Part shown: positions 27,350 to 44,840 of the stretch, one piece after another
Layout of the letters: each line of letters starts with the position of its first letter
How positions within the stretch are numbered: the first letter of the stretch is position 1
NCBI RefSeq assembly: GCF_004116385.1
Contig: NZ_PEIB01000001.1
Coordinates: forward strand, 186,001-250,000
Source: Veronia nyctiphanis
Lineage (GTDB): Bacteria > Pseudomonadota > Gammaproteobacteria > Enterobacterales > Vibrionaceae
Direction of reading: 5' to 3'
DNA: 64,000 bases
Made by a program: the position numbers and the translations under genes
The notes under the pieces: model-generated
The model's database searches: none
Told to the model about the DNA's origin: nothing
The model's input: the letters and a program-made list of their open reading frames with translations, nothing else

Positions 27350-27364
27350 ACATCTCTTAATAAC

Positions 27365-27387
27365 AAAAAAGCCGTGTTAAACACGGC
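27365..27387 (-). terminator. Intrinsic terminator after the DUF535 gene
   Basis: GCCGTGT at 27371-27377 and ACACGGC at 27381-27387 with a tight loop; on the minus strand six T follow. It ends the leftward DUF535 transcript. Confidence 0.75.
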
Positions 27388-27396
27388 CTAGACATC

Positions 27397-28340
27397 TTAA
27401 TTCCAACGAATCACGTTTAACGCATTGATAATGCTTTGTTCAGACTCCGCAAGCCACTGATAACGCTTTTCATACAGACGGCGTTTGTTCTTTTTAAGCG
27501 TTGATGGGTCTTTTCTTTCTGGCACTATCTCCAGTGAATAGGCGAATTTGTTGATCAGTTCACCGCCAAATTCGTCCCACAGTGCATCATGGTCGAAACC
27601 GACTTTGTTTCGTTTGGAGCCCATATAGCGAAGTGCCTGATAGATGTGACCTTTATTACTGATGGCCTGAACGGACTGGCAGCCAAGCTCTCTCGCGACC
27701 ATTAGCGCTACTTCGACCATCAGAGACTTTGTTCTCAGTCCATGTAGTGAGCGTGTCAGTGTTTTGATCACTTCAGAGCGGTTATCGACGTGGTTTGTTG
27801 GCCCTTGCAGTGCTCCAATATATAAGGTTTTGTTTGTTTCGCCACCAATAGAAAAAGCAATGGAGTAAACGAGTTGATGTTGACTGTCTAGCAGTGCCAG
27901 CATCAGATCACCTTCACGTGACTGACTGGTTTGGTATCTCAATACGACGCGGTAGCTGTTTTCTTCACGATCAAGAAAGTTGAGGATCTCATACCCTTGT
28001 TCGGTGTAGAACTTTTCCAGATTTTCACCGAATGTTTGTTCCAACATTTTGTAGTGTTGGCTAATGATTTCTGCGCGTTGTCCCGGCTTGATGTTCAGGC
28101 CAAGATATGGCTTCAACGGCTTTTCGTAAAAGTGTCGATTGTCTTTGAGGATTGATTGAAGCATTGGGCTCGAAAAGGTCTCGAGCGTCTTCTTGATAGT
28201 CACCGGGTTTTTCATACCCCACAAGCAGAAACGTCCACGATAACGGATTTTTCTGATCCCTTTGGCATCTGGGTAAATCGATTTTGATAGTGCCTCAGGC
28301 TTAGGTCAGTGGTAGTAATGTTGGCCTGTTGTGTATTCAT
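27397..28340 (-). CDS. VirK/YbjX family protein, DUF535 (frameshifted)
   Basis: Cytoplasmic DUF535 protein. Typical blocks are GLNIKPGQRAEIISQHYKML, LMLALLDSQHQLVYSIAFSI, YIGALQGPTNHVDNRSEVIK and ALRYMGSKRNKVGFDHDALW. The frame open from 28224 starts in mid-domain. Upstream, the same frame reads EALSKSIYPDAKGIRKIRYR and GRFCLWGM without a start, while an ATG at 28340 opens another frame (MNTQQANITTTDLSL). Adding one G near 28296 joins them into a protein of about 314 residues. Family members in enteric bacteria affect outer-membrane and virulence traits; the biochemical role is unknown. Confidence 0.75.
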
Positions 28341-28528
28341 CAATCAATCTCTCTTTCACTAAATCAGCAAGCGCCCCAAGCGGGGAAAAGGCGAAGCCAG
28401 TAGAAGTGGCTTTTAAAACGTTGTTTTTTTGGGCGGGTCTATTATGACTAACTCAAAACATAAAGCAATAAAATAATGTTCATTACATTTATTTGTGATT
28501 TGAATTAAATGTAGATCTGAGCAAGAGT

Positions 28529-28563
28529 AAAAAGCAGTTAAGTCAGTTGCTTAGCTGCTTTTT
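28529..28563. terminator. Bidirectional-type terminator after the ion channel gene
   Basis: AAAAAGCAGTTAAG (28529-28542), loop of seven, CTTAGCTGCTTTTT (28550-28563): a 14-bp stem with one G-T pair, U-rich on either strand. It lies 33 bases past the leftward channel gene. Confidence 0.75.
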
Positions 28564-28595
28564 AAATTCGGCTGGCAAGAATGGTTTACGACTTT

Positions 28596-29431
28596 TTAGG
28601 CGATTCGGCTGTCGGGATCGGGTAATTCGCTGCCGCAAAACTTACAGTACAAAGCATCTGACTCATGGCCAGTTTCTGAGCAGTTCGGGCATTTGACCAA
28701 ACGTCGGTGCAGGTTAATCTCTTGTCCCATTTGTGCCGTGATGATTCCTGTCGGCACCGCGATAATGCAATAACCCATCAACATGGTGAAAGATGCCAGC
28801 CCTTTTCCTAAATCTGTTTGAGGCACCAAATCACCGTAGCAACGGTTGTCATGGTGACAATTGCCCAATAGATACTGTAGGGAATACTGGTGAAGCCATG
28901 GTCGGGGCCTTCAATGGCAAACATCAACGAGCCAAACACGGTGACCAGCACCAGCACTGTCATAAAAAAGACCAATATTTTTCGCGCTGACCCTCTTAGG
29001 GCGCTAAGGAGAAAGTTGGACTCCTGAAGAAAACGCACCAACTTGAGAATCCGGAATATACGAAGCACCCGGAGAAGGCGAATCGCCATCAGGTAACTGG
29101 CTGCCGGGAATAAGAGCACCAAAAAAGTGGGGAGGATGGCCACTAAATCAATCACGCCATAAAAGCTTTTAGCGTAGGCCAGCCTGTGAGGTGAACAATA
29201 TAGCCTTAGCAGATATTCAATGGAAAAAAACGCCGTGAAAGACCACTCTAACGTAACAAGCAATGTGCCGTATTGCTGCTGGTAATCACTGACAGAATCC
29301 AACATCAGTACGACGATAGAGCCAAAAATGACAAAAATGAGTGTGATGTCGAATGCTTTGCCTGCTGCTGTGTGTGTACCGAAGATGGTGGTATACAGAT
29401 ATTTTTGAATTGGTGTTTGCTTGTTTTCCAT
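28596..29431 (-). CDS. Voltage-gated-type potassium channel with carboxyl zinc ribbon (frameshifted)
   Basis: Six-segment inner-membrane cation channel, 278 residues after repair. The voltage-sensor S4 is evident (RLLRVLRIFRILKLVRF, residues about 118-134, an Arg/Lys every third position). The pore helix YSIYWAIVTMTTV runs into GYGDLVP only when one G is restored near 28840 (GTTGCTAC for GTTGGCTAC), giving the K+ filter TVGYGD. S6 follows (LMGYCIIAVPTGIITAQMG). The end has a CPNC-N13-CKFC zinc-ribbon-like pair. Proteins of this kind are common in Vibrio-like bacteria; role probably K+ homeostasis or membrane potential. Confidence 0.85.
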
Positions 29432-29648
29432 GTGGCGACGTAACTAAGAATTGAATAGCGGGAAGTTTAGCAGCTGTGCTCGCCATGAATTGAGACGGGC
29501 AGTAAAAAACAGTGAAATCTGCCGTAATTCAGGCTGTAGGTGCCTATCAAACTGATTTCCAAACGAACCCTAGCGAGTCAACAGGTTGGCCTTGGTTGTC
29601 AGTGACCATTCAATGAGATTGTTCTTATCCAATGGAAACGGTCACAGG

Positions 29649-30323
29649 TTAACTTGCTGCTTCGAGAATACGCCCGGTGAAACTGTCATTGGCCACGATA
29701 TATTCTGCGCCATCAATCATGTCATAGTTGACGGCAGGGTCATGTTTCAGTCTCCGGTTTGAATGGCTTCGGAGAGTCGGTAATACCCCTGCTACGCGAA
29801 TATTCACGGGTGCTAGTTCTTTAGCCCAGCTTTGTGTCAAACCGCGTATGATGGCGTTGCAGCTGTCGAGGGAGTTTTCGTAATCTTCCTTAGAGATGTT
29901 GTCAGGTATGTTTACAATCACGCCCTGACGTCCTTCATTGAGCATACTGAAAGCCGCCCCCCGCCCAAATAAATAGAGGTTTGACGCAACATCGGAAATG
30001 GAATCGGCCTCTGTTTCACTGGTTGCCAATAAGCTCGGGATTTGCCCTGTTTGCCAGTAGTTGATTAAGACATCAACTGCGCCCATTTCGCTACTCACAT
30101 GTTGAAAGAAAGCTGAAATACTGTCTGTGCTCTTGTCTGCTAATACGAAGGAAAGGCAGATCCCCCCGGCATTTTGGCAGGCTTCATAAGTTGCCTGTAA
30201 TTCCTGACAATTGGTATCAACAAGTGCAACACGTGCATGTAATGAACAAAAATGTTCGGCCATTGCCCTTCCTGTTGGGCTCCCTGCGGCAGTGATCACA
30301 ATTACTGATTTTGCTATATCCAT
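29649..30323 (-). CDS. SDR-fold protein with degenerate active site
   Basis: A 224-residue protein with the overall SDR pattern (VIVITAAGSPTGRAMAEHFC, ARVALVDTN, VDVLINYWQTG, GLTQSWAKELAPVNIRVAGV). Key residues are missing: the cofactor motif TGxxxGxG reads TAAGSPTG, the catalytic serine region reads VNIPDN, and the YxxxK pair seems replaced by L and N (SLDSCNAIIRGL). It may bind nucleotide without catalysing a redox step, or act as a regulator or partner. Alone in its orientation context; no operon partner is evident. Confidence 0.6.
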   Translation of the reverse strand: MDIAKSVIVITAAGSPTGRAMAEHFCSLHARVALVDTNCQELQATYEACQNAGGICLSFVLADKSTDSISAFFQHVSSEMGAVDVLINYWQTGQIPSLLATSETEADSISDVASNLYLFGRGAAFSMLNEGRQGVIVNIPDNISKEDYENSLDSCNAIIRGLTQSWAKELAPVNIRVAGVLPTLRSHSNRRLKHDPAVNYDMIDGAEYIVANDSFTGRILEAAS

Positions 30324-30589
30324 CTTTCTGACCTTTTAAGTTGATCTTTCTGGACTTATTCAGGGTTTATACACACTAGCCAACAAGTTAACCCCAACTT
30401 TTCAACTGGTGGATATCAATTTTGGTACATGTTTCGCATTTTTGTTGTGAATCCGCTCATAAAAGTGGTGTGTAAACTGTGTGCAAATTGTTAATTAAAT
30501 ATTCGAGTGATATCTCTTGTGGGGGGAAGTGTTACTAACTTCTTGATATGTAAATGAGAGTGAAATTAAATATTTTATTTATCAATTAC

Positions 30590-31099
30590 TTATGCGCACT
30601 GACTGAATTCACTAAACCGCCGTGCTTCGTTGAGCTGCTTGTAGAGGTTTACCGGATCAAGGCCGATATCTGTGGTTTTCTGGCTTGATAGGCGTCTTCT
30701 CTGGTGTCCAGAGAGATTATGATAAACATCTTCACCTAAATCGTGTGTTCCCTCGGCAGGAAAGTGCAAAGCAGGAGGGGAAACATAACCTGAAAGTTTA
30801 GCGCTAGTAATGCCTGCATGGTGAAATGCATGAGATTGGCGTTCAGCACGCTGATAATCTTCTTCTTTTGCCGAGAGGCGTTCTGGTTCAGAAAGTTGGA
30901 ATAAAGTACGAAGTTCATCATCTGTCTTTACTTCTATACATACCTTTTCTACGGGGACGGTTTCTGTTGCATCCCCCGACAGCAATGCCAGCATGAGGGC
31001 GAAGTCGGATCGACGCCCTTGCGATACAGCATGGTTTAAATTATCACCAAGCTGGATATCACTTATTAATGCTGCTTTGTCGAGAGTATGTAACTGCAT
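30590..31099 (-). CDS. VC2046/SO_2500-type conserved hypothetical protein
   Basis: A 169-residue soluble protein with no signal peptide. The opening MQLHTLDKAALISDIQLGDN and LNHAVSQGRRSDFALMLALLS resemble, from memory, the VC2046/SO_2500 family found in Vibrio and Shewanella. The carboxyl part has HNLSGHQRRRLSSQ. No enzymatic motif can be named. A 46-residue small gene lies 54 bases upstream in the same direction and may be co-transcribed. Confidence 0.6.
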   Translation of the reverse strand: MQLHTLDKAALISDIQLGDNLNHAVSQGRRSDFALMLALLSGDATETVPVEKVCIEVKTDDELRTLFQLSEPERLSAKEEDYQRAERQSHAFHHAGITSAKLSGYVSPPALHFPAEGTHDLGEDVYHNLSGHQRRRLSSQKTTDIGLDPVNLYKQLNEARRFSEFSQCA

Positions 31100-31153
31100 A
31101 AAACTCAGCGATGAAAAGGTTATGAGTACTTATCGGCGCTGGTGGCAGTCTCT

Positions 31154-31294
31154 TTAGAGAAAATCACCATATTTCAATTGATTGCTGATCAAATAGTCAA
31201 TTGAATCGATTTGTGTGATTTTTGTCGCGAATAGAGAAGAAGCACGCTGAACAGGAATGAACTCCACACTTCGTTGTTTTCTATCATCAACCAT
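31154..31294 (-). CDS. Small protein of 46 residues
   Basis: Short open frame on the minus strand beginning MVDDRKQRSVEFIPVQRASS and ending NQLKYGDFL. An AGAGGGTGA sequence lies about seven bases before the ATG, a good ribosome-binding site, and the composition looks like coding sequence (mixed charged and hydrophobic residues). It is upstream of and in the same direction as the VC2046-type gene. I do not recognise it; chance occurrence is possible at this length. Confidence 0.45.
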   Translation of the reverse strand: MVDDRKQRSVEFIPVQRASSLFATKITQIDSIDYLISNQLKYGDFL

Positions 31295-31443
31295 ACATTT
31301 CACCCTCTGTTTACTTAGGGTCAAAAACGAGCCACATCAATCACTGCGTTTTAGACTATTTTGGTAAGAGAAATATAAACATAAAGAAGCGACAACTTTT
31401 GGTGTCTGGAAGACAGTTTTCATTCATTCTCTAGGGACAGTTG

Positions 31444-31896
31444 ATGGCACAGAATATTTCGTTTGATGATTTGGTGAATGTCAGCCAGTTATCGTTCTTT
31501 CGTTGGTTGATTGCGAGTGCAATTGTTTGCTTGGTCGCGCCACTAGTATCGCCCTTTGGCTGGCTATTTATCTTTTCTGAAGATTCAGACCTCACCGCAC
31601 TGGCACTTGTTTTGTCTTACAGCTTGTTTGTTGGCCTACCATTTACCTTTGCTTGGGTTGTTCTCTTTTCGTTTGTTATCCGGTTTTGGTGCCCGCAATT
31701 TTCACGGCGTCATTCTGTACGTTGGATGATAAGTGGCTCAATCCTTGGGTTCATTATCTTAGCGATACCGATAGCAATTGATGCTGGGGCAACGCTAGGT
31801 TCTCTGTCCATCATTTATCTGTTGGTGAGTGGCGTGATATGCGGGGCATTTGCTGGGTGGTTATTCTTGAAAGTACTTCTTTTTGGACGCCGATAA
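31444..31896 (+). CDS. Small inner-membrane protein, unknown function
   Basis: A 150-residue protein with four likely membrane segments (around LIASAIVCLVAPLVSPFGWL, ALVLSYSLFVGLPFTFAWVV, GSILGFIILAIPIAIDAG and LSIIYLLVSGVICGAFAGWL). No family recognised. ATG at 31444 is preferred over an adjacent TTG. Convergent with malY/patB, with a terminator-like hairpin between them. Confidence 0.6.
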   Translation: MAQNISFDDLVNVSQLSFFRWLIASAIVCLVAPLVSPFGWLFIFSEDSDLTALALVLSYSLFVGLPFTFAWVVLFSFVIRFWCPQFSRRHSVRWMISGSILGFIILAIPIAIDAGATLGSLSIIYLLVSGVICGAFAGWLFLKVLLFGRR

Positions 31897-31906
31897 CGCA
31901 TGATTA

Positions 31907-31930
31907 ACCCGACCTTTCGCCGGGTATTTC
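31907..31930 (+). terminator. Terminator between convergent genes
   Basis: ACCCG (31907-31911) and CGGGT (31921-31925) with a nine-base loop, then ATTTCT, 11 bases past the plus-strand membrane protein gene. Confidence 0.5.
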
Positions 31931-31937
31931 TCTCTAT

Positions 31938-33107
31938 TTAAAGTGCGTTAATGGCATCTTCCATTCTCTGCAATGCTAACATCAACTGCTTCTTTGTACA
32001 GCCGAAGTTGAGCCGGACAAAGTTGCGATCACCGAACTCAATACCGGGAGACAGGCCAACCCCTGCTTTTTCAAAAAATAAGCAAGGATTTTTCACTGGG
32101 AGGTCTTTACAGTCAATCCAGGCTAAATAGGTTGCCTCGATATGCTGAAGTGCGAGGCCCGGGATACGGTCAATAGTTTGTTGCACTAAATCTCGGTTAA
32201 GGGCGAGGTACACTAATTGCTCATCGAGCCATGCCTGTCCGTATTGATAACTGGCCTGCGCCGCAGTGTAAGCCAGCAAACTGACATGAGGTACGATCCC
32301 CATTTTTTCCCGTCTGAAAGCGGTTCTTAGGCTCTCATTTGGAATGATGGCAAACGATGCACCGAGGCCCGCAATATTGAAGGTTTTACTGGGGGCCATT
32401 AACGTGACTGTGCGCTGCTCTGCATCTCTACTCAGACTTGCCAGTGGAATATGTTTGAGTGCTTTGTCCAAAATCAGGTCGCAATGAATCTCGTCTGAAC
32501 AAATAACCAAATCGTTTTGTTGGGCAAACAGTAAGACTTCTTCCAACTCTTCCTTTCTGTAAACCGTGCCGCCCGGATTGAGGGGGTTACAAAATTGGAG
32601 TAAACCTGTATTTGCGGGGAGATCCGCCTTCGCTGCATCGAGATCGACTAACCATCTTCCATGCTCAAGTTTTGTCGGTACTTTGTATGTCGGTTTACCC
32701 GCAAGTTTTGCCGAGGAAGCGAAAGGCGGGTAGATAGGAGTCGGGATCATGATGGTGTCGTCTGCGTCACACAGCGCTCGGGCGGCGATGTTAAGGCCAC
32801 ACACCAGACCGGGCAGATAAACAATCCAATCAGGCTCTACGTTCCACTGGTAGAGTTCAGCCATGCGATTGACGATAGTATCAGTCAATGCCTTAGGTGG
32901 ATGCGTGTAGCCAAATACACCATGGTCAACTCGCTGATGCAGAGCCTCAATGACAGGTTCAGGTATCCGAAAGTCGGTATCTGCTACCCACATTGGTAGA
33001 ACATCTTTGCCTTCGTATTTGTCCCACTTTGTGCTGCCTGTGTTTGTTCTGTCTATTTTCGTATCAAACAGATTTATGTTCTTTTCTTGCCGTGCATCCT
33101 TGCTCAT
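31938..33107 (-). CDS. MalY/PatB-type cystathionine beta-lyase / aminotransferase
   Basis: PLP enzyme of the MalY/PatB family, 389 residues. It shows LPMWVADTDFRIPEPV near residue 37, YLPGLVCGLNIAARAL, LLQFCNPLNPGGTVY, SDEIHCDLIL and the PLP-lysine motif APSKTFNIAGL. Members cleave C-S bonds in cystathionine or cysteine conjugates; some also act on regulators. No methionine or maltose gene is adjacent, so the physiological substrate is open. Confidence 0.85.
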   Translation of the reverse strand: MSKDARQEKNINLFDTKIDRTNTGSTKWDKYEGKDVLPMWVADTDFRIPEPVIEALHQRVDHGVFGYTHPPKALTDTIVNRMAELYQWNVEPDWIVYLPGLVCGLNIAARALCDADDTIMIPTPIYPPFASSAKLAGKPTYKVPTKLEHGRWLVDLDAAKADLPANTGLLQFCNPLNPGGTVYRKEELEEVLLFAQQNDLVICSDEIHCDLILDKALKHIPLASLSRDAEQRTVTLMAPSKTFNIAGLGASFAIIPNESLRTAFRREKMGIVPHVSLLAYTAAQASYQYGQAWLDEQLVYLALNRDLVQQTIDRIPGLALQHIEATYLAWIDCKDLPVKNPCLFFEKAGVGLSPGIEFGDRNFVRLNFGCTKKQLMLALQRMEDAINAL

Positions 33108-33260
33108 TAAAGAACCTGACTTTGGTGAATATCACTTTCAGAGTAATGAATATTTACTGCGTTGTGTAGTGGAGATGACTGTGGCTTTTGACTGTTTTAC
33201 ATTTTCAGAATTAGGTCGGGAAGATACAACTCAGTTAAAAAGTTTGCTCTTGGAAAAGCA

Positions 33261-33291
33261 AAGCCTCACAGACTTGTTTGCAGTGAGGCTT
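33261..33291 (-). terminator. Terminator after the ABC-F gene
   Basis: AAGCCTCAC at 33261-33269 pairs with GTGAGGCTT at 33283-33291 across a 13-base loop; on the minus strand TTGCTTTT follows. It ends the leftward ABC-F gene. Confidence 0.6.
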
Positions 33292-33305
33292 TACTGATTT
33301 GTAGA

Positions 33306-35059
33306 TTACAAAGATAAAACCGTTTTGATTTTATCTATTTCTATTTTCCACAATGTTTGCCGTTGTACTTTTTGGTGCTTTTGTTTGCGGTTAGTATCTG
33401 CTTCCAAAAGCGCCTCAAGTTCAAACAGCCTTTCCAGTAAATCATCATGTCCGTCAGCGATCGGACATTCTTTTTTCTCAGCGGATAGCGGTGCTTCATA
33501 TGTCGTTGGATGTCGCACGGAGACCTCGGTCAGTTCTGCATACACTTTTTCAATGTCATGCCACTCTTCGAGTTTACCGTCTTTCACCAACCAGAAGCGG
33601 TTGCAACTGGCTTCAATCAAATCACGATCGTGACTGACCAGAATAAGCCCGCCTGCAAATTCACGGATACTGTCTGCCAGCTCTTCTTTACCCTCTAAAT
33701 CCAAGTGGTTTGTGGTTCATCGAGCATTAGCATGTGGTAATCCGCTAAGGTTAAGCCGACAAAAAGCAGCCTTGACCGTTCGCCACCACTCAAGCCTTCA
33801 ATGGTTTGCTGATGTCTGGCGTAGGGAAAACCTGCTTTGATCAGCGCCATTTTAAGGGCTTCAGTAGGTAATGGGGCGAACTGACTGAGTGCTTCCATCA
33901 TGGTTTGCCCATCATCTAACTGCTGTAATGTTTGATCGTAATAGCCGACCTTACTTTTCGGATGAAGGCGGATTGCTTCCTCTATCAGACGCAAACTTCC
34001 ATTGCCCTGTAGCGCTGCAAATCGCTGCCACAACATTCTGAGCAGAGAAGATTTACCTGTTCCATTCTGGCCAAGAATAGCAACCTTGTCACCGCTTTTG
34101 AGTTGAAGCTCCGGCGTAAGGTACAAGGCATCAGCATCATCAGCAGGACGAACATCAACATTGTTTATCTCCAATAGCCTGTTTGCAGGTAACGCTGTAC
34201 CTTTCAGTTTCAACTGCCAAGGCGTGCCTTCAGACAACTCGGTCTGGTTGGCTTTTAACGTTTCGACACGTTTTTCCATTGTTTTGGCTTTACGTGATAG
34301 GTCCTCGTTATCGTAAGTGTGGCCCCATACAGCAAGGCGCTTAGCACTTTTTGCAACGCGGTCTATCTCTTTCTGCTCTTCCTTGAAACTCGCTTCATCA
34401 GCCTCGTCCATGGCGGCCAGCTCAGTACGAGCGGCCGAGCAGGGTAGCGCAAAGCTGTACAATGTCCGGTCGCGCATGATCCAGGTTGAATCGGTCACAG
34501 CATCCAATAACTTCTGATCATGAGAAACCAGCAAAAATCCCCCTTTGAATGCCTTTAAAAAGCTTTCAAGCCAAAACAGGGTAGGGAGATCCATGTGGTT
34601 GCTGGGTTCATCCAGTAACAACAGATCAGGGTTATTGATCAACGCTCTGGCAAGCAATAATCGCGTGTGTTCACCGCCACTCAGTGTGCCTGCCGTCAAA
34701 CTCATGTCTGCCTGATTAAAGCCCATTTCATTCAACAGAACGTCAACACGCCAGATATCAGTTTGTTTTTCTTCATCAGAAAGACGTTCTGATACAGCCT
34801 CATGCATTGTTAAAGCCGAAAGTGTCGGCGGCAAGTGTTGCTCTACATGTTCTATATGGCAATGTTTCGCTAAGCTGATTTCACCTTCTTCAGCCGTGAT
34901 TTTACTGGTCAATAGTTTTAACAGGGTACTTTTGCCACAACCATTATGGCCAACCAGTCCAATGCGGTTGCCTCTGGAAACCGTAAAGGTGATATCGTCC
35001 ATCAGTGGGCCAGAAGTTGTGTGGTAAGAAACCTGTTTTGCAGATAATAGTGTGCTCAT
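33306..35059 (-). CDS. ABC-F family ATPase (frameshifted)
   Basis: Soluble twin ATPase of the ABC-F class (ribosome-associated translation factors and antibiotic-resistance proteins), about 584 residues after repair. Domain 1: GLVGHNGCGKSTLLKLL, LSGGEHTRLLLARAL, LLLLDEPSNHMDL, LLVSHD. Domain 2: AILGQNGTGKSSLLRML, LSGGERSRLLFVGL, MLMLDEP, and in the second frame NHLDLEGKEELADSIR with LILVSHDRDL. Restoring one A near 33709 gives LDEPTNHLDL. The missing transmembrane segments and the intervening charged linker fit ABC-F. ATG at 35059 gives the usual start (MSTLLSAKQVSY). Which ribosomal state it serves cannot be said. Confidence 0.85.
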
Positions 35060-35639
35060 AGCATGTACTCGAATTGTCGGTGCAAAAGCACCAGAAGTCA
35101 GAATTGCTGACGACAACCCGCACTGCTTGAGGGAAGGTTATTTACTTTGTTGACTGCTTCGCTCAAGCCAGGTTATCGCAGCATGAAAGCGCGAGTGCTT
35201 GAGTGGCGAGCATTACCAAAGAAGTGTATATGCTTTTTTACACATACATTCATGACCAGTTCCTCCCTTATTGTTAGTGAATCGATGTTGGTGACACTAA
35301 AAAAAGGTGCTGGAATAGGCAAGAAATTGGACAGAGTTTTTCGGGCACGGTATCAGTTTTTGCAACGTTGTGAAGGAAAGGCTCGCTGTTTGAGAGTAAA
35401 TACCTGTAACGAGGAGTGAAAAGTGTCACTAGCAGTTTTGCTCTTAAAACGTTCTGAGTACTATCTAATTTTTTGCTTTGCAGTAAAAAATGGCAGTCAA
35501 ATATGTCTAATTTGAAATGCAATACCTGTCTCAAAATTTAACATCAATATTCTTATTTAAGAACTAATCTTTGAAAAGTCTGTCCGCTATCGTTATTTTC
35601 CTGCGTTGAGCCATTTCAACTTTTATTGTGGAAAATAAA
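35060..35639. other. Intergenic region between ABC-F and lipoprotein genes
   Basis: About 580 bases between divergent genes. A 90-codon frame at 35147-35419 is open, but its residue composition is not protein-like and it lacks a ribosome-binding site. The part beyond 35420 is A/T-rich and likely contains the lipoprotein promoter. I see no convincing gene, RNA or repeat. Confidence 0.5.
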
Positions 35640-36005
35640 ATGAAAAAGAATATTTTGTCAGTTGTAGCATCAACGTCATTAATTGCCTTGTCTGGTTGTG
35701 CGAGTGTGATGACACACGAAGAGCAAACAGTAAATGTTAAATCTTCAACTAATCAACCTGTTGAAGTATCAATTGAAGGACAGAAAGTCACGACTCCAGG
35801 TACAGTTGTCCTGCTGAGAGACGGTAAAGACAAAGTTGTTAGAACAGCTGACGGCTCATGTGAGAAAGAAACAGCCGTTGATAAAACAATCACGCCTGTA
35901 TTCTTTGGAAACATTATTCTTGGTGGTTTCCCTGGTTCCACAACAGATGCTGTAACAGGCAAAATGTGGGATTACGAAGACGACGTTGTAGTAACTTGTA
36001 AGTAA
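35640..36005 (+). CDS. Small PEGA-like lipoprotein
   Basis: A 121-residue lipoprotein: the signal peptide MKKNILSVVASTSLIALSGC ends in a lipobox with Cys20, and the residue after Cys is Ala, compatible with outer-membrane sorting. The mature part has a PEGA-like strand pattern (PVEVSIEGQKVTTPGTVVLL) and the ending GGFPGSTTDAVTGKMWDYED, seen in a widespread family of small lipoproteins of unknown function. A terminator hairpin for this gene lies 34 bases on, inside the start of the next gene. Confidence 0.7.
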   Translation: MKKNILSVVASTSLIALSGCASVMTHEEQTVNVKSSTNQPVEVSIEGQKVTTPGTVVLLRDGKDKVVRTADGSCEKETAVDKTITPVFFGNIILGGFPGSTTDAVTGKMWDYEDDVVVTCK

Positions 36006-36020
36006 GCCCCACTTTAAACA

Positions 36021-37754
36021 ATGAAAAAATTCTATGTGAGCCGCTTAATTGCGGCTTTTTTAATTTTTATTTCCCATTCAAGTTTTTCTGCGGATGAAAG
36101 TGACCTGATTCGTGTATCAGATTCACGAATTTGGCAGACACTAATACACAGTTGGAATGGAAACCCTCAAATACCCTCCAAACAGTTCCTGCTTTCTTAT
36201 CAAGAGTTTTCGCCTCTTAGCGAACTCAAAAAAACGTTAAATTTGATTTATGAAGAGCCCAAAAAAGCATATTGTCGATTTCCTGCACGAACAACGTTCT
36301 TGAAACGTGCGTTGAAACTTGTTGTCGAAGACTTTTCGCCTTCTGATTGCGACGAGAGATTCTCAAAATACATTGACCATGTTCCTTTTGACCGTCTGGA
36401 GTTAGTGTTTGCCTCTGAAGTTTTCTCTTCTTCATCCAGTATGATGGGGCATATATTTTTGAAAACGAGCGGGAAAAACTACCGAAATGTACCAGTCAGC
36501 CATTCACTTGCGTATTTCACTGAAATAACGACGCTTAACCCAATTACATTGATTGCAGAAAGCCTTGTTACGGGTATGCCTGGCTTCTTTACCGTTCGCC
36601 CGTTCGAGAAAGACCGCCATCAGTATGTCGATATCGAAGAGAGGAATTTATGGCAATTTACACTTAGTGCAGAGGCTGAGAGTATTGAATTAATCAGACT
36701 TCACCTTTGGGAGCTTAAGGATACTGATCTGGTTTATTATTTTCAGTCATTCAACTGCGCAACATTGACGCTTGAACTACTTGCTTTAATTAAGCCTGAT
36801 GTGCTTGATGAGCGACGATTATTTGTGAGTCCCCTTGATGTAGTAAAGGCAGCTAGAGATACGGGGCTGATTAATACGACGAATGTAATAGCCGCAGATA
36901 AATGGCTTCGATATGTTCTGGATGATCAACTTTCGTCAACGGAGAAACAGCAAGTTGATGATGCTATCGCGGATAGAGGAATCGTTGCGTCACTGTCACC
37001 ATTACAAAAGCAGTATTTTTCTCTGATAGATGAAAGAGCAGAGGTAGTGCTGCAGGGAAATTTTGTTTTTGACCTCAGTAAATATAAGCATCCAGCCAAA
37101 ACGCCACAAGATTCCGTTTTTTCCGTAGGTTTGTCGAGTAGTGATGGGCAGGTTGCACTAATAAGCCGTTTTCTTGCCGCAGGACACAGTCTATCTTCTG
37201 ACAATCGCCAATATTTACATGAGTCGGAGCTCGTCATGGGGAATATTGTCGTTGAAACCAGCTTTGAGGATGCTGAAACCAAACTAAGAGAGTTTGCGTT
37301 GTACAGTGTCAGAACGTTACCGCCATCTACCCAAATAGACCCATCATGGTCTGGTGAGCTCTATTTAGGGTATCGACCAAGCTTTGATTCTAGCTTGAGC
37401 TCACGCTCTCAAGGTGAATTATCATTCGGTTTTGGCAAAACATTATCTTTCCATAAAGATCTACGAATATTTTCCCTAGTTGGTGGTGGCTTGGGGTCTG
37501 ACTTCAACGATACAAATCTGTTTGGTTCAATAAAGGTGGGTGTTATCGCTGATCTCATATTAGACAGTAAGTTTGTCTCAGAGCTTGAGTGGGCCTCACA
37601 TAAGCTTGCTGACTCGCCCGGTTACATTTCAAGTCAATCGAGTATCAGTTGGTTCCCTGCACAAGACAATGCTGTCGCGATTCACTACTCAGTGACAAAA
37701 AATGAGTTAATGAGTAAGAATGAAATCGGCCTTACGTACTCATTGCACTTTTAA
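36021..37754 (+). CDS. DUF4105-family periplasmic or outer-membrane protein
   Basis: A 577-residue exported protein: signal peptide MKKFYVSRLIAAFLIFISHS followed by SFSA. The middle matches DUF4105 (FASEVFSSSSSMMGHIFLKT, LVTGMPGFFTVRPF, YYFQSFNCATLTLELLA), with conserved His and Cys suggesting a papain-like fold. The carboxyl third alternates beta strands (LYLGYRPSFDSSLSSRSQGE, GLGSDFNDTNLFGSIKVGVI) and ends in F, suggesting membrane beta structure. Function unknown. Codons 7 to 14 contain a complete terminator hairpin. Confidence 0.7.
   Translation: MKKFYVSRLIAAFLIFISHSSFSADESDLIRVSDSRIWQTLIHSWNGNPQIPSKQFLLSYQEFSPLSELKKTLNLIYEEPKKAYCRFPARTTFLKRALKLVVEDFSPSDCDERFSKYIDHVPFDRLELVFASEVFSSSSSMMGHIFLKTSGKNYRNVPVSHSLAYFTEITTLNPITLIAESLVTGMPGFFTVRPFEKDRHQYVDIEERNLWQFTLSAEAESIELIRLHLWELKDTDLVYYFQSFNCATLTLELLALIKPDVLDERRLFVSPLDVVKAARDTGLINTTNVIAADKWLRYVLDDQLSSTEKQQVDDAIADRGIVASLSPLQKQYFSLIDERAEVVLQGNFVFDLSKYKHPAKTPQDSVFSVGLSSSDGQVALISRFLAAGHSLSSDNRQYLHESELVMGNIVVETSFEDAETKLREFALYSVRTLPPSTQIDPSWSGELYLGYRPSFDSSLSSRSQGELSFGFGKTLSFHKDLRIFSLVGGGLGSDFNDTNLFGSIKVGVIADLILDSKFVSELEWASHKLADSPGYISSQSSISWFPAQDNAVAIHYSVTKNELMSKNEIGLTYSLHF
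36039..36061 (+). terminator. Terminator hairpin embedded in the DUF4105 signal-peptide codons
   Basis: AGCCGC (36039-36044), loop TTAATT, GCGGCT (36051-36056), with a T-run continuing to 36061. A textbook intrinsic terminator 34 bases after the lipoprotein stop, but also 18 bases into the next reading frame, where it encodes part of the signal peptide. Confidence 0.7.
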
Positions 37755-37780
37755 TGACTGATGTTTCAAGCCTATTTAGA

Positions 37781-37800
37781 AGACGCCAAATGGCGTCTTT
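37781..37800. terminator. Bidirectional terminator
   Basis: AGACGCC, loop AAAT, GGCGTCT then TT, between the convergent DUF4105 and cmoB genes; on the minus strand the stem is followed by TCTAA. Confidence 0.65.
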
Positions 37801-37826
37801 CATAAGTTTTGATAACTCACTGGAAG

Positions 37827-38798
37827 TTAATCAGGATTTTGTGCCACCAAAATAGCGCGTTTCGGTGCAGGATAGCCCTCAATGGTTTTGGTTGGGTCTT
37901 GCTGATCAAGGTATTCTGGCAGAGAGTTGTGTTGCATCCAGTCTGTTGAGCGTTGTTCATCTGTGGTGGTCACACACTCATCGACGATGCTCACATCGAC
38001 AAAGCCGACCTTCTCTAACCAAACTTTCAGCGCTTTAGCTGAAGGGAAGAAGTAGACATTGCGCATTTGTGCATATCTGTCGGTTGGTACCAGCACCGCA
38101 TTTTCATCGCCATCGATAACCAGTGTTTCAAGCACCAGTTCACCGCCTTTCACCAGCTGATTTTTGAGTTGAATAAGGTGGTCAAGCGGGGAGCGACGAT
38201 GGTAGAGCACACCCATGCTGAAAACAGTGTCGAAGGCTTTTAACTCAGGTAACTTTTCAATACCCAGAGGCAACAGGTGCGCACGTTGGTCATTGCCCAT
38301 CAAGCTGCGAATTGCTTCAAACTGCACAAGGAATAACTCAGATGGATCGATACCGACCGTCAACGCTGCGTCTTCACCAAGCATGCGCCACATGTGGTAG
38401 CCGTTACCGCAGCCCACATCGAGTACATAGCGACCTTTAAGCGGCGAAATATGTGGGAGGACACGATCCCATTTCCAGTCTGAGCGCCACTCGGTGTCGA
38501 TATTGATGCCATGAACCGTATACGGTCCTTTGCGCCACGGGTGAAAACTGCGTAGCAAGTTTTCCAGTTTGGCTTTGTGGCCATCGGTGAGTTCGTTTGC
38601 ACAGCCTATGGTCACGCTATCTTTCAATTCAATAGATGATGGCGGTTCTGTTGGTATTTTCTTGAGCACTCTCAGCCATTTTGGCATATCGCCATGCGGC
38701 AATTCTTGCCATTCAGCGAGTTGTGCAGGTAAGACATTCAGCCAGTCTTGAAGTCTGTTTTTGGCAATGAGTTGGTAAAAATCAGAAAAATCGAACAT
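37827..38798 (-). CDS. cmoB: tRNA U34 carboxymethyltransferase CmoB
   Basis: Uses carboxy-S-adenosylmethionine made by CmoA to carboxymethylate 5-hydroxyuridine at tRNA position 34, giving cmo5U. The 323-residue protein has the CmoB block [20 protein letters not shown], the SAM motif [15 protein letters not shown] (residues about 125-139), [20 protein letters not shown] and [14 protein letters not shown], nearly as in E. coli. Downstream of cmoA in the same direction, the usual pair. Confidence 0.95.
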
Positions 38799-38867
38799 GA
38801 ATAATCTTTGGTCTATCAGCCATCGTTATGAATGAGAACAGAGTCAGCTATCAGCATTGTCTCTGAG

Positions 38868-39752
<885 letters not shown>

Positions 39753-39823
39753 TTACGTTTAACCCTCAACAGGTTAGCTGTTTGGTCATTTAGTGATTCA
39801 TTCTATATCGTGGTATAACGTAG

Positions 39824-39834
39824 TTAGTGACTAA
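39824..39834. promoter_or_regulatory. Operator-like palindrome upstream of the TetR gene
   Basis: TTAGTGACTAA is a perfect 11-base palindrome around a central G, 32 bases before the TetR start. A related half-conserved copy, TTAGTGATTCA, lies at 39790-39800. It fits an autoregulatory TetR site. Confidence 0.45.
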
Positions 39835-39865
39835 ATCGTAAAAAGTGAAAAGGATATTAACAATC

Positions 39866-40639
39866 GTGTCAGGCAGTTTATCGGCAACGAAACCAAGTGG
39901 TTTAACCCGCAAACAACAAGCTCTTCTCGACCGTGAGCAGGAGCTCATTGCGATCGCTTTCGAGGTAGTTAAGCGCGAGGGCTTTACTGGCCTTACTATG
40001 GATAAGGTTGCTGCGGCAAGTTCATATTCCAAAGGTACGGTATATAATCACTTCACCAGTAAAGAAGACCTGATCGCTGCATTAGCGACGAAAGCGTTAT
40101 CTCAAGAAATTGCGATGTTCAAAAGGGCGTCTGCATTTAAGGGTAACAACCGTGAAAAGCTTCTTGCCGTCCACGTGGCTTATGCACTTTTCTGTTGTTT
40201 AGAACCTGCGCTTTCCAATTGTGTATTAAGTTGCCGAACACCGGCCGTCACAGAGAAAAGCTCAGAGAAACGTTTAGCCGCGATGAATAGCCTAGAGGCA
40301 GAGCTGTTGTCACTTGGCGACCAGATCATGGAGTTGGGCGCTGCTCGTGGTGAAGTCGATATGTCAGGCAGCATTCCGGCAACGTCGATTGTGTTTGCAA
40401 ACTGGGCAATGGGTTTTGGTGCCAATGCGTTGTTTAACAGTGCGTCCGAGTCTGGTGCCGTTGTTCGTGTTCAAGAGACATGTGAGAACCCCATTCTAGA
40501 CTGTATAAACCTTTTGTTGGATGGTGTGGGCTGGAAACCCTTATCCACTGAGTTCAATTATCAAGAAACGTGGCAACGAGTTCTGGATGAAATCTTTCCT
40601 GAAGAGGCCGCGTTTATCCGTCAGTCGAAAAGTCTATAA
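39866..40639 (+). CDS. TetR-family regulator upstream of the RND cluster
   Basis: A TetR-type regulator of about 257 residues. The helix-turn-helix domain is clear (IAFEVVKREGFTGLTMDKVA, then AASSYSKGTVYNHFTSKEDL), with an unassigned carboxyl domain. GTG at 39866 with AAAAGGA upstream is the likely start; GTG at 39845 is an alternative. Divergent from cmoA and followed in the same direction by the RND exporter cluster, which it may control. Regulators of this type near RND exporters usually repress them and respond to the exported compounds. Confidence 0.75.
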   Translation: MSGSLSATKPSGLTRKQQALLDREQELIAIAFEVVKREGFTGLTMDKVAAASSYSKGTVYNHFTSKEDLIAALATKALSQEIAMFKRASAFKGNNREKLLAVHVAYALFCCLEPALSNCVLSCRTPAVTEKSSEKRLAAMNSLEAELLSLGDQIMELGAARGEVDMSGSIPATSIVFANWAMGFGANALFNSASESGAVVRVQETCENPILDCINLLLDGVGWKPLSTEFNYQETWQRVLDEIFPEEAAFIRQSKSL

Positions 40640-40782
40640 ATCCTTATCATTTATGAAGACATAGGCGGCAATCTTGTTGTCGCCCGAATCGCAATCCATC
40701 CCATAGCATCCAGTTTTATATCCTCCTTAGCCCGCTTATCATCTATTTACTCCGATTCTCCACATTGAGAAAGTCCATTTTT

Positions 40783-40802
40783 ATGTATGAATATTTATAC
40801 AT
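40783..40802. promoter_or_regulatory. 20-base palindrome ahead of RND1
   Basis: ATGTATGAATATTTATACAT is symmetrical except for one base pair. Its size and A/T core recall binding sites of TetR-type master regulators in Vibrio (LuxR/HapR), though it does not match the LuxR consensus well. Confidence 0.4.
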
Positions 40803-40959
40803 GATTTAACGAGGGATTGTATATCCTTACGCCTCTTTGAATCTGGCTACACGTGGTGTCAGAGAATTTTCTACTCGTATTTACCCTTCTCTTTATCGCA
40901 TATCCTTCTTGGTCTATCTGGTCTAACCAGCTGGGCAGGCTCCTGGTCTCGTCGATTTG

Positions 40960-40981
40960 TTGAGATGACAGATGGTCTCAA
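40960..40981. promoter_or_regulatory. Inverted repeat TTGAGA-N10-TCTCAA ahead of RND1
   Basis: Six-base perfect arms with a ten-base spacer, about 120 bases before RND1. The inner TGAC-AGATG-GTC has the same spacing as the TGAC-N5-GTCA repeats before RND3 and RND4, so it may be a diverged form of that operator. Confidence 0.35.
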
Positions 40982-41100
40982 GGTGTGCGAAAAGTACATT
41001 AGCACTGGCATGAACGCGCGAGACTATTTTTGAGTCATTAAGGCATTAAATGGGCGCTTTTTAGCTCAATGAGTTTCGCCGATTGATTAAGAGGAAAGGA

Positions 41101-43428
41101 ATGTTTACTGATGTGTTGTTTGGTCTGCCAGTAAGAAAACCGTGGCTGACACTCTTCATTGTGGCGCTATTTGCCGGTCTATTTTCCTTCGGCGCACAGA
41201 ACTTATATTTCCGTGGCGATTATAAGGTATTTTTCCACGACGACAGCCCTGAGCTTATCAAGTTTACTGAGCAACAAGATCGTTTCAAGGCAGCGCAAGG
41301 TATTGCCATTATCATTGAGGATCCCAGCGGGAACGTATTCAATGAGACAACACTGAACATAGTTCGCGAACTGACTGAGTTAGGCTGGGAATTTCCCTAT
41401 GCGATCCGCTCTTCATCTCTCGCCAACTTCCAGTATACGACTGCAGACGGTGACGACATGGTGGTCGAGCCTTTGATCGGCGATGACAATTCACTGACAC
41501 CAAAAAATATCGAATATATTAAGAACATTGCCCTCACTGATGCGAACACAGCGGGTGTATTAGTGTCCCGCTCTGGTCAGCTCGCGCTGGTTAGCGTTAC
41601 TGTCCAGCTGCCGGAAGACGGTGGTTTGACAGAGCAAGTTATTGAGATAGTCAGACACACAAACAAAATCATTGCAGATGCCAAAGAAAAGGCCCCTGAA
41701 CTGATATTCCGCAAGTCCGGGAGTATTGCGTTGAACGACGCGTTCGGGGTCGCCGCAGCGCAGGATGTGAGAACCTTGATCCCTATGATGTTTGCAGCAG
41801 TGATGGTTTTCCTCGGACTATTGCTTCGCTCTTGGCGTTTTGTCTTTGCCACCATGCTTGTTCTTGGCACAGCAGTATCCATGACGATGGGTTTACTTGG
41901 CTGGACGGGACATTACCTGACCAATATTACGATTGGCGTCCCAATGTTGTTGCTCACTCTAGCCGTAGCAGACTGTGTTCATATCATCACGGGGTATATT
42001 CACGGATTAAACAAGGGGAAAGGGCAGACGGAGGCTATTAAATATAGTCTGGAGCTGAACTTCATTGCGCTTCTGGTCACATCAGTAACCACGTCGTTTG
42101 GTTTTTTGATGATGAATGCGTCGGTGTCACCAGCCTTGATCGACTTTGGTAACCTTGCAGCAGTTGGAGTCATGATTGCCTTCATACTGTCTGTGACTCT
42201 GTTACCTGCAATCTTGGCTCTGATGCCTATCAAGACCTCCACATCACGTGTCGATGAGCAAGATGAATCGATGCTCAAAATCGCCGAATGGGTCATCAGT
42301 CACCATCGAAAAGTCTTACCTATCGCTGCCATTGTGGTTATTGCCAGTGGTTTTTTGATGTCACAAAACGAACTCAATGATGAGTTGGTGAAATATTTCA
42401 AGACTGGTAGTGATTACAGAGAGCAGGCGAGTTTTCTTGATGACAAAGTCGGCAATACGACGCTGACCATCACACTGGATACGGGCGAAGCGCAGGGCAT
42501 CACTAAGGTCGAGTTTCTGAAAACACTCGATGCGTTCACCAACTGGTTGTATGAGCAACCAGAGGTCAATCACGTCTCCAGTCTCGTGGATGTGATGCGT
42601 CGTCTGAACAAAAACCTCAATGGAGATGACCCCAACTACTACAAAATACCTTCCACCGATGAGATGGGCGCTCAGTATCTGCTGATGTACGAATTGTCGT
42701 TACCTTATGGGCAGGATTTAAACAGCCATGTAGATTTCAATAAATCGGCCGTCAGGGTCACGGCCATCATGAGAAGCCTTGGCAGTAAAGGGATGATCGA
42801 GCTTGAAAGCAAGGTGGAAGATTGGTTGGACAAAAACGCGTCCGGGTACGGTTACGAAATCACAGACTTGTCGGTAATGTTTGCTCACATTGGTGCTTCG
42901 AACCTCAAAAGTATGATTGTGACGCTGCCTCTGGCATTGGGCGTTATATCTGCGCTTCTTATCCTGGCATTACGCTCGTGGCGTTTGGGGATTCTCAGCC
43001 TTATTCCGAATTGTGCCCCCATCATCGTTGGGTTTGGTGCTTGGTATCTGGTCTCTGGTGAAATCAATATTGCCGTCTCTGTGGTGGTTTCGATGACGCT
43101 GGGGATCGTGGTTGATGACACCGTCCACTTTTTAACCAAATACCGCAAAGCCCGTGAAGAAGGGAAAAGTGTCGAAGACGGAGTACGTTATGCGTTCGTT
43201 ACCGTCGGTAGAGCATTATGGGTAACGACTGTGGTTCTTTGTACAGGCTTTGCGCTTCTGGCGACGTCTGACTTTGTGCCGAATGCCAGTATGGGATTCT
43301 TGAGTGCGGTTGTCGTCATGTTTGCACTCCTCGGCGACTTCTTCATGTTGCCTGCCATACTGTTACTTATTGATAGAAAAGCGTATCTCAACAAAAAAGC
43401 GAGCCTTGTTGAAAGTTCTTGTCGTTAA
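41101..43428 (+). CDS. RND-superfamily exporter 1 (MMPL/HAE3-like)
   Basis: Inner-membrane RND exporter, 775 residues, shorter than the AcrB class (about 1050) and like the COG1033/MMPL-type exporters. Two repeats, each with a periplasmic loop and a six-helix bundle, are visible. The amino-terminal loop opens with NLYFRGDYKVFF (residues 34-45). Proton-relay residues are D291 in LAVADCVHII (helix 4) and D672-D673 in GIVVDDTVHFL (helix 10). TSVTTSFGFLMMNASVSP is another conserved block. AGAGGAAAGGA precedes the ATG. It is followed by a beta-barrel gene but has no LolA-like gene. Substrate unknown; lipids or lipoproteins are plausible for this class. Confidence 0.85.
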   Translation: MFTDVLFGLPVRKPWLTLFIVALFAGLFSFGAQNLYFRGDYKVFFHDDSPELIKFTEQQDRFKAAQGIAIIIEDPSGNVFNETTLNIVRELTELGWEFPYAIRSSSLANFQYTTADGDDMVVEPLIGDDNSLTPKNIEYIKNIALTDANTAGVLVSRSGQLALVSVTVQLPEDGGLTEQVIEIVRHTNKIIADAKEKAPELIFRKSGSIALNDAFGVAAAQDVRTLIPMMFAAVMVFLGLLLRSWRFVFATMLVLGTAVSMTMGLLGWTGHYLTNITIGVPMLLLTLAVADCVHIITGYIHGLNKGKGQTEAIKYSLELNFIALLVTSVTTSFGFLMMNASVSPALIDFGNLAAVGVMIAFILSVTLLPAILALMPIKTSTSRVDEQDESMLKIAEWVISHHRKVLPIAAIVVIASGFLMSQNELNDELVKYFKTGSDYREQASFLDDKVGNTTLTITLDTGEAQGITKVEFLKTLDAFTNWLYEQPEVNHVSSLVDVMRRLNKNLNGDDPNYYKIPSTDEMGAQYLLMYELSLPYGQDLNSHVDFNKSAVRVTAIMRSLGSKGMIELESKVEDWLDKNASGYGYEITDLSVMFAHIGASNLKSMIVTLPLALGVISALLILALRSWRLGILSLIPNCAPIIVGFGAWYLVSGEINIAVSVVVSMTLGIVVDDTVHFLTKYRKAREEGKSVEDGVRYAFVTVGRALWVTTVVLCTGFALLATSDFVPNASMGFLSAVVVMFALLGDFFMLPAILLLIDRKAYLNKKASLVESSCR

Positions 43429-43443
43429 ACAACGGATATTATT

Positions 43444-44783
43444 TTGAAGTTAGTGAGAGTTATTACAAGCGCAATGATGGCGGTGAGTGCGGTACTTTTT
43501 CCGCAAGCCTTTGCGCTGGAAGCCGAGGCGGAGATATCGCTTGAGTATCGACAGTTTGCCCAAGGGGGGGAAATGGGGCAGGCTCATCGCAGTTTTCTGC
43601 TGTTTTCGAACCTAGCCTATTTTGGGAGAGTGAAGAAGAGGGTCACAGCCTGACGTGGAAAACGTTTTTCCGGATTGATTCTCTCGACGAGAACCGCTCT
43701 CACATCGATATTCGTGAGGCCTATTACGAGAACCGCTTTTACTTCTTTAACTTTAACGACGAGATCGCGGTTAAAGCGGGCGCGGCACAAGTATTTTGGG
43801 GAGTGACAGAATCGTTGAATGTGGTTGACGTCATCAATCAGTCTGATCTGGTGGATTCCATCACGGGGCAGAAACTCGGTCAGCCGATGATTAACCTGAA
43901 CCTTGAAAATGATTTTGGACTGACAGAGTTTTATGTCATGCCACTATTCAGGGAGCGGACCTTTGCCAGTAATACAGGACGCCTCTCTTTCCCTGGTATC
44001 GTCAATAATCCAATTTATGAGTCGTCCAGAAAGCAACAGCACATCGATTTAGCACTACGCTATTCCTACAGCTTTGATACATGGGATCTGGGCTTCACCG
44101 TGTTTCATGGCACAAACAGAGAGCCATACTTTGCCGCGGAAGTCTCTACACCGGTAGAAACGCAAATTAATACAGTCATCGATGTGGTGCCTTACTACGC
44201 GCAAATGACCCAGTTTGGTATCGATTTGCAAGCGTTCTGGGGCGACTGGACATGGAAATTGGAAGCTATCAGACGCGAAAGCCTTGTCAGCCACACGGCG
44301 ATCGTCGCTGGTTTTGAGTATCCTTTTGTCGGCGTCTGGGGGAGTGACAGCGAGGTCACCTTGTTTGCTGAGTACTTGTATGACAGCCGAGATCCTATTG
44401 GGCCTGTGAGGATCAGTCTTGATGACACAACCCAGCTGCTGATATTTCTCTCCGATACCTTGTTTGGTGGTGTGTTAACGCCTGATTTTCAGGCCGAGGC
44501 GGATGCGAGAAAACTCAGTCCGACGATTACTCAGAATGATATTTTTTCTGGTATTCGCTGGGCATTTAACGACATTAATGGCACAGAATTGCGTCTCGGT
44601 TTCTTGATGGATATCGAACATATCTCTTCGTATTCAACACAGATAGAGGTGACAAGCCGTTTCAGTGAAAGCCTGACATGGAGAGTCTCCGGCGCATTCT
44701 TCAATAGCGAAGAAAAACAGGATCCTTTGTTCAACATTAAAGATGATGATTACGTTGAGGCTGGTGTGAAGTACTACTTTTAA
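43444..44783 (+). CDS. Outer-membrane beta-barrel protein 1, porin-like (frameshifted)
   Basis: Predicted outer-membrane beta-barrel, about 446 residues after repair. A signal peptide (MKLVRVITSAMMAVSAVLFP, then QAFA) precedes LEAEAEISLEYRQF. The barrel family signature shared with the other two barrels here is AQVFWGVTESLNVVDVINQS, then KLGQPMINL. Alternating strands lead to the terminal VKYYF, the usual outer-membrane ending. One T is missing from a T-run near 43596; restoring it gives HRSFSAVFEPSLFWESEEEG. The start codon seems to be TTG at 43444; ATG at 43474 would still leave a signal peptide. It may be distantly related to DUF1302 proteins. Confidence 0.7.
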
Positions 44784-44840
44784 CGCCAGTGCTTAGTGAA
44801 AACCAAAAGGAGTGAGATAGGTGATGAAAAAGGTAGTTGA

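Follow-up and report, generated by a model that had tools for sequence, protein, structure and literature searches.

Results

A Gene Pair with a Hairpin inside the Second Gene

We analyzed a window of 64,000 nucleotides from Veronia nyctiphanis (positions 186,001 to 250,000 of contig NZ_PEIB01000001.1; all coordinates below are those of the window unless stated otherwise). In it, a small lipoprotein gene is followed closely by a gene of the DUF4105/Lnb type. Given the promoter-like site ahead of the first gene and the two hairpins, we describe the layout as a two-gene unit that has terminators both at its end and within its second gene (Table 1). The same consensus scan found no other promoter-like match on the plus strand between 34948 and 37691.

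Table 1. Features of the two-gene unit, in window coordinates
Feature	Position	Strand	Basis
Promoter-like site TTGAAA-17-TATTTT, before the lipoprotein gene	35571..35599	+	consensus match 9/12 only
Gene for a small lipoprotein of 121 aa with lipobox LSGC; family partnered with this Lnb clade	35640..36005	+	ORF, alignments A3 and A5
15-nt gap from lipoprotein stop to Lnb ATG, without Shine–Dalgarno	36006..36020	+	anti-Shine–Dalgarno duplex -0.6 kcal/mol
DUF4105/Lnb-type gene, 577 aa, ATG start; DUF7843, Lnb_N (PF13387) and DUF7840	36021..37754	+	ORF, domain search
Signal-peptide codons MKKFYVSRLIAAFLIFISHSSFSA; cleavage point placed by eye	36021..36092	+	translation
Terminator hairpin in Lnb codons, 7 bp, loop 6 nt, dG -12.1	36038..36057	+	scan, fold, covariation, synonymous null
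T-run (U-tract), encoding Phe/Leu in the core of the signal peptide; predicted 3' end of the transcript	36057..36061	+	sequence
Hairpin resembling a terminator, 3' of the Lnb stop, closing the two-gene unit	37779..37800	+	terminator scan

The Lnb_N domain (PF13387) of the window's protein scores 102.3 bits against a cut-off of 22.2, and its His144 and Cys246, invariant across the seven sequences of alignment A1, presumably form the catalytic pair of the enzyme. According to excerpts of two reports, DUF4105 has been named Lnb as the lipoprotein N-acyltransferase of Bacteroides, a relative of the permuted NlpC/P60 enzymes with a conserved His and Cys (PMC12994826, PMC13251419). The window's protein shares the Lnb_N domain and these two residues with the Bacteroides enzyme, but its genome also encodes a full-length Lnt (contig C24, 5949–7124; 318.7 bits), so that it is not the sole N-acyltransferase candidate but one of two unrelated ones, and N-acylation by this clade is putative. 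The placement of a lipoprotein gene next to one for a lipoprotein-modifying enzyme suggests that the two products may be substrate and enzyme.

The lipoprotein itself belongs to an uncharacterized family with the motif GS(T/S)TDxxTxKMWxY, whose members we found in the window (35640–36005) and at L033–L039, L074–L092, L094–L096, L123–L125 and L170–L172; the strong ones that were scanned directly precede an Lnb gene. A Pfam search with the lipoprotein gave no family at a meaningful score and the match in NCBIfam was weak (20.1 bits, with 91 needed), while the AlphaFold model consists chiefly of strands (mean pLDDT 72).

The hairpin has arms AGCCGC (36039–36044) and GCGGCT (36051–36056) around the loop TTAATT (36045–36050) and is followed by five T (36057–36061). 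An additional G36038–T36057 pair is possible and extends it to the 7-bp stem GAGCCGC-TTAATT-GCGGCTT (36038–36057). Five of the seven pairs are G–C, the loop has 6 nt and the T5 lies directly 3' of the stem, giving the stem, loop and U-tract of an intrinsic (Rho-independent) terminator. The original prediction, of a clean terminator behind the lipoprotein gene that starts at base 18 of the DUF4105 frame within its signal-peptide codons, is thereby borne out on both counts: hairpin and T5 occupy 36038–36061, the lipoprotein gene ends at 36005, 32 nt before the hairpin, and the reading frame from 36021 to 37754 with its translation places the onset as claimed. The hairpin follows the first of two codirectional, co-occurring genes and lies ahead of the body of the second.

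In isolation the hairpin folds with a dG of -12.1 kcal/mol (z -4.6) and is equaled by none of 200 shuffles. This surplus shrinks with the length of the folded segment, to a z of -3.75 at 57 nt, and for 101 nt the total energy ceases to stand out (from 35980, z -1.84 with 7 of 200 shuffles equaling it; from 36000, z -1.06 with 28 of 200), but the hairpin is present in all four folds computed. Its exact 23-mer occurs once in the 5.29-Mb genome. Matches to the terminator consensus alone are frequent in this region, as a scan from 26000 to 45000 gave 30 sites against 17.7 ± 4.4 in shuffled sequences; the hairpin is one of four such sites with five G–C pairs. A riboswitch or other known RNA family was rejected, as an Rfam search over 35000–38000 returned only subthreshold hits (Trp_leader with 21.9 bits, 41 needed, E 0.29), and a tRNA search over 30000–42000 found none.

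Conservation of the Hairpin across Relatives

The nearest Lnb homologues come from Pseudoalteromonas (three records), Rheinheimera, Undibacterium (two records) and a Bacteriovoracaceae MAG, and all seven have the same lipoprotein gene upstream. For a wider sample, the Lnb profile (A1) was run on 274 genomes of the class and the lipoprotein profile (A3) on the families to which the Pseudoalteromonas and Undibacterium records belong (295 and 245 genomes, respectively) and on 191 genomes from the phylum of the Bacteriovoracaceae MAG. It was also run on 324 genomes from the window's family and on 299 from the phylum. Each lipoprotein match of at least about 130 bits whose neighborhood was scanned directly precedes a codirectional Lnb gene. 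The pair is sparse in the window's own family, with any lipoprotein match in 15 of the 324 genomes and a strong one in 6 of those. Collapsing duplicates left 38 nonredundant lipoprotein–Lnb junctions and, after dropping one in which the Lnb N terminus is missing (L065), 37, which form 28 clusters at 60% amino acid identity. Three loci from a separate family of the phylum were found later and played no part in forming the idea; among the other late records, L168 and L169 repeat known loci and L173 is a weak lipoprotein homologue without Lnb. Nine records of plasmid relatives, none covering 80% of the query, were left unused.

With at least 5 T demanded in the 8 nt after the stem, a U-tailed hairpin was found inside the Lnb frame at 36 of the 37 loci, and all three later loci have one too, with new stems. 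In total, 39 of 40 nonredundant loci, spanning several Pseudomonadota lineages and the Bacteriovoracaceae-type phylum, carry a hairpin in the Lnb frame, nearly always in the signal-peptide codons and with differing stems; at these loci a presumably translated frame runs through the terminator, as in pyrBI. Counted from the chosen start codon, the stem begins at +9 to +31 in 37 of the 39 loci and at +15 to +31 in 36. The position is not absolute: one hairpin lies 56 nt into the Lnb gene (L124), another has its first base in the third position of the Lnb start codon (L123, after position 1851) and could also hinder initiation there, and the one exception (L125, after position 1851), which belongs to the same phylum as the Bacteriovoracaceae MAG, has both genes without a U-tailed hairpin by the criteria used and so provides a natural negative control. 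At a further locus (L036, 2974–4481), the Lnb gene is broken into two frames and its hairpin-bearing start region is intact.

Constraint beyond the Protein

For every locus we drew 1,000 synonymous recodings of the hairpin region with codons sampled from elsewhere in that gene. Recodings that matched the score of the real hairpin numbered at most 20 of 1,000 (2%) in all 39 loci and were absent in 19 of them; in the window, 1 of 1,000 was as good. The three later loci are left out of the figures for covariation, median distance, promoters and third positions, here and below. A covariation alignment of 28 of 30 representatives, with L123 and L124 omitted for their differently placed hairpins, has 86.6% of the stem cells paired and contains 40 double-changed stem cells against 15.4 ± 2.7 in shuffled alignments, with none of 500 shuffles as high and slid controls giving 1 to 14. 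The numbers of pairs changed on both sides and of further pair types were indistinct from the shuffles (142 and 69 of 500, respectively, as high). An example of a paired change is seen between the window and L033, from Pseudoalteromonas luteoviolacea S2607, where CGC...GCG (Arg...Ala) corresponds to CAC...GTG (His...Val), with both residues altered.

Close relatives show the same restriction in their codons. In 11 partly overlapping comparisons, third positions in the stem differ at 4 of 71 sites, against 1,154 of 3,653 (32%) third positions of unchanged residues elsewhere in the gene; loop positions differ at 8 of 43. As judged from these comparisons, the covariation and the recodings, selection is on the pairing rather than on the letters. 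The original prediction had looked to related genomes for stem pairing conserved beyond the needs of the protein, with relatives that keep the amino acids and lose the stem as the contrary outcome. The stem is retained while both the amino acids and the stem letters turn over, and covariation, synonymous recodings and third positions all point in the direction opposite to that contrary outcome.

Controls against Chance Hairpins

Among the matches listed, 6 of 53 Lnb paralogues without an upstream lipoprotein gene have a hairpin of -8 kcal/mol or better between -10 and +150, and four of those six begin before the start codon; the starts were assigned by rule, and for two paralogues without a start codon found (L042 and L069) the first base of the ORF was substituted. 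One of these two (L042, 1396–3759) has a lipoprotein homologue (86 bits) downstream rather than upstream and no hairpin at its start. When coding sequence was cut into tiles of 105 nt, such a hairpin turned up in 1 of 480 from farther inside Lnb genes and in none of 111 from lipoprotein genes. In 310 kb of the window's genome, an embedded hairpin occurs in 2 of 76 tightly spaced gene pairs; the second case is weak (-8.1 kcal/mol) and lies 92 nt in, so that the window's alone exceeds -10 kcal/mol. In the same 310 kb, 5 of 291 genes have a hairpin in the first 110 nt of their longest ORF, one of them U-tailed with -18.6 kcal/mol (contig C1 near 178150, minus strand). The latter precedes a gene that, from its protein sequence, we take to be hisG; it is presumably the his attenuator and served as a positive control. 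Only one other genome of the window's genus was compared, and there (L003, approximately 1442–1468) a terminator hairpin ends just before the ATG of a distant Lnb paralogue, with no lipoprotein gene. Of 44 loci where a weaker lipoprotein homologue is not followed by Lnb, 14 show a terminator no more than 150 nt past the stop.

T-rich signal peptides might yield U-tailed hairpins by codon choice alone, and the T run does indeed come from Phe, Leu and Ile codons. The results for the paralogues, tiles and gene pairs contradict this, as do the synonymous null, the covariation and the third positions, and we rejected a chance hairpin as extremely improbable.

Starts, Spacing and Promoters

Lnb start codons were chosen by rule as an in-frame ATG, GTG or TTG at or 5' of the stem, with later starts disallowed. 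Behind the stem there is no in-frame start within 45 codons in the window and six other loci (7 of 39), which rules out a downstream true start in the window, where a GTG at 36036 is an alternative at the very edge of the stem. Nine of the 39 loci have a later start that leaves a fairly hydrophobic stretch, six of these being Leu TTG codons inside the core, and in those nine a start behind the stem is possible on the sequence. The Lnb frame thus appears to be translated from before the stem, most firmly so at the seven loci where no later start exists.

In 36 hairpin loci, the distance of the Lnb start from the lipoprotein stop ranges from -10 to +28 nt, with a median of 7.5, and a recognizable ribosome-binding site rarely precedes this start. 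The anti-Shine–Dalgarno duplex in the 20 nt upstream has a median of +0.2 kcal/mol, with 2 of 37 loci at -3 or lower, against a median of -3.5 kcal/mol and 29 of 37 at -3 or lower for the lipoprotein starts, which were also chosen by rule. Reinitiation at Lnb by ribosomes from the lipoprotein gene is possible. From the lipoprotein stop to the stem, the spacer measures 17 to 39 nt in 36 of 39 loci and 10 (L123), 51 and 72 nt in the others; it is at least 17 nt in 38 loci. The median is 24 nt in the 36 hairpin loci found first, with 17 to 19 nt in the three later loci and 32 nt in the window; 23 of the 39 spacers are shorter than 27 nt, and 16 are 27 nt or longer.

Promoters were compared by consensus scan only, in 31 of the 37 loci after leaving out six near-duplicates. 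None of the 31 scored 10 or more before Lnb (mean 7.90 against 7.99 in shuffled sequences), while 11 of 31 did upstream of the lipoprotein gene (mean 9.10 against 8.39 shuffled).

Discussion

Our preferred reading is that the hairpin is a selected partial intrinsic terminator in a two-gene operon that would give much lipoprotein and little Lnb, and we consider this probable. It builds on the observed anatomy, conservation, covariation, codon constraint, spacing and weak Lnb start, and adds that the hairpin would terminate transcription in the cell, would do so partially and would have low Lnb as its selected outcome. Most transcripts would end at 36057–36061 and serve as lipoprotein mRNA, and a minority of readthrough transcripts would, as bicistronic mRNA, also carry Lnb. 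The low, controlled level of the DUF4105 protein that had originally been proposed is what we infer as the best account. Lnb is probably begun by ribosomes leaving the lipoprotein gene, since it mostly lacks a Shine–Dalgarno sequence and starts so close to the stop. As Lnb starts at the lipoprotein stop and a terminator has to clear the ribosome there, the hairpin would be pushed into the Lnb codons. A signal peptide could be a suitable host, with its Lys, Arg and Ser codons giving an A-rich 5' side with AGC, and its Ala, Phe and Leu codons giving GCT and the U-tract. Terminated messages would have no stop codon in the Lnb frame, and the weak Lnb start may shield the lipoprotein message, because non-stop translation about halved upstream expression in E. 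coli, according to an excerpt of PMC4824070.

Several of the distances can be set against that same study, again as excerpted. In E. coli, the ribosome at a stop codon silences a terminator just past it, and full strength is reached beyond approximately 27 to 30 nt; at 17 to 18 nt the efficiencies were 0.12 and 0.8, depending on the sequence, and the rule rests on one terminator, tR2, with 17 to 26 nt as its graded zone (PMC4824070). A terminator placed 30 bp inside a second ORF kept most of its strength, with translation removing about 10% (PMC4824070).

The terminator might instead be a switch, as the original prediction had it, with prompt translation from the Lnb start opening the hairpin and slow translation allowing termination, as in the pyrBI leader but within a structural gene. 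The location of the terminator inside the Lnb frame at 39 of 40 loci and the hairpin that takes in the last base of a start codon (L123) agree with this, and there are precedents in the available parts of the literature: translation of a leader peptide opens a terminator in Streptococcus gallolyticus pil1 (PMC3894217), and pyrBI is discussed as a translation-opened terminator (PMC4824070). Against it, 35 of 37 Lnb starts have no good Shine–Dalgarno sequence (weaker than -3 kcal/mol), and the stem lies +15 to +31 from the chosen start in most loci (36 of 39), whereas the footprint of a ribosome at the start codon need not reach a stem at that distance. The weak Lnb start and the relief of only about 10% for the E. 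coli terminator 30 bp past a start (PMC4824070) make a fixed partial terminator likelier, and the switch seems to us unlikely. With a duplex of -0.6 kcal/mol in the window, the claim that DUF4105 translation decides termination thus describes a possible mechanism but not the likelier one. In a stricter form, the signal-peptide codons of Lnb would be a translation-sensitive terminator by which the gene gates itself, and Lnb would be made only if the ribosomes of the lipoprotein gene restart promptly, a proposal we hold to be doubtful. If it were true and Lnb acts on the lipoprotein, the supply of the enzyme would be coupled, in the nascent transcript, to production of its substrate or partner, and too frequent Lnb starts would, for want of a stop in the Lnb frame, lead to tmRNA rescue at the cost of lipoprotein mRNA.

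A different gate would lie upstream, where the closeness to the polymerase of the ribosome finishing the lipoprotein would set the readthrough and Lnb mRNA would track lipoprotein translation. With 23 of 39 spacers below 27 nt, in the zone where termination depends on a coupled ribosome in E. coli (PMC4824070), and with short spacers both in the first loci (median 24 nt) and in the three later ones (17 to 19 nt), some dependence on lipoprotein translation is a reasonable third possibility. At the other 16, the window's 32 nt included, the spacer has a length at which repression is gone in E. coli (PMC4824070), and the lower edge at approximately 17 to 19 nt is equally explained by avoidance of the ribosome, so we rate this gate as rather improbable. 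We regard it as very unlikely that the hairpin simply ends the lipoprotein gene as an ordinary terminator and overlaps Lnb by compaction, without meaning, with Lnb expressed from another promoter. Its anatomy is ordinary, genomes of this kind are compact and the later start at nine loci could leave a hydrophobic N terminus, but the consensus scan found no promoter enrichment before Lnb. In the window, an Lnb mRNA begun downstream would lose the signal peptide, as no in-frame start follows the stem within 45 codons.

The partial terminator that we prefer has known counterparts, here compared as far as the excerpted sources go. Operon-internal intrinsic terminators set gene ratios in the ABC importer operons of cellulolytic Clostridia (PMC9045158), where, as proposed here, an upstream exported binding protein is made in excess, a stem-loop of variable sequence stops most transcripts and a fraction reaches the downstream partner. 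Those stem-loops were sought in intergenic regions longer than 50 bp, whereas ours is embedded in codons for the signal peptide of the downstream gene, and the two genes lie almost end to end. The attenuators of E. coli pyrBI (PMC4824070) and of pil1 (PMC3894217) similarly have a terminator in or beside a translated frame where a following ribosome can prevent termination, but what is translated there is a leader peptide; in our case the frame encodes the N terminus of the enzyme itself, mostly without a Shine–Dalgarno sequence and with no known signal. The synthetic tR2 constructs, in which terminators were put within 100 bp of the beginning of a coding region, likewise place one about 30 bp past the start of the second gene of an operon and yield non-stop mRNA, but they are plasmid-borne (PMC4824070), and the present one is a natural, conserved case. 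Colicin lysis-gene operons, from partial sources, were considered as an analogy only. We found nothing on the locus in the available parts of two 3'-end-mapping studies (PMC7815308, PMC12207403) and, among the matches listed from titles and abstract openings of the open-licence literature, no conserved terminator in the signal-peptide codons of a next gene.

The finding draws attention to a little-studied pair of lipoprotein and Lnb genes, the ratio of which seems important to the cell. It offers a natural test bed for how near to stop and start codons a terminator can sit, and it suggests that terminators inside ORFs may be selected rather than spurious. In this pair, one set of codons serves both as a regulatory RNA signal and as a secretion peptide, and distant bacterial groups have preserved this dual role even as the letters of either side changed.
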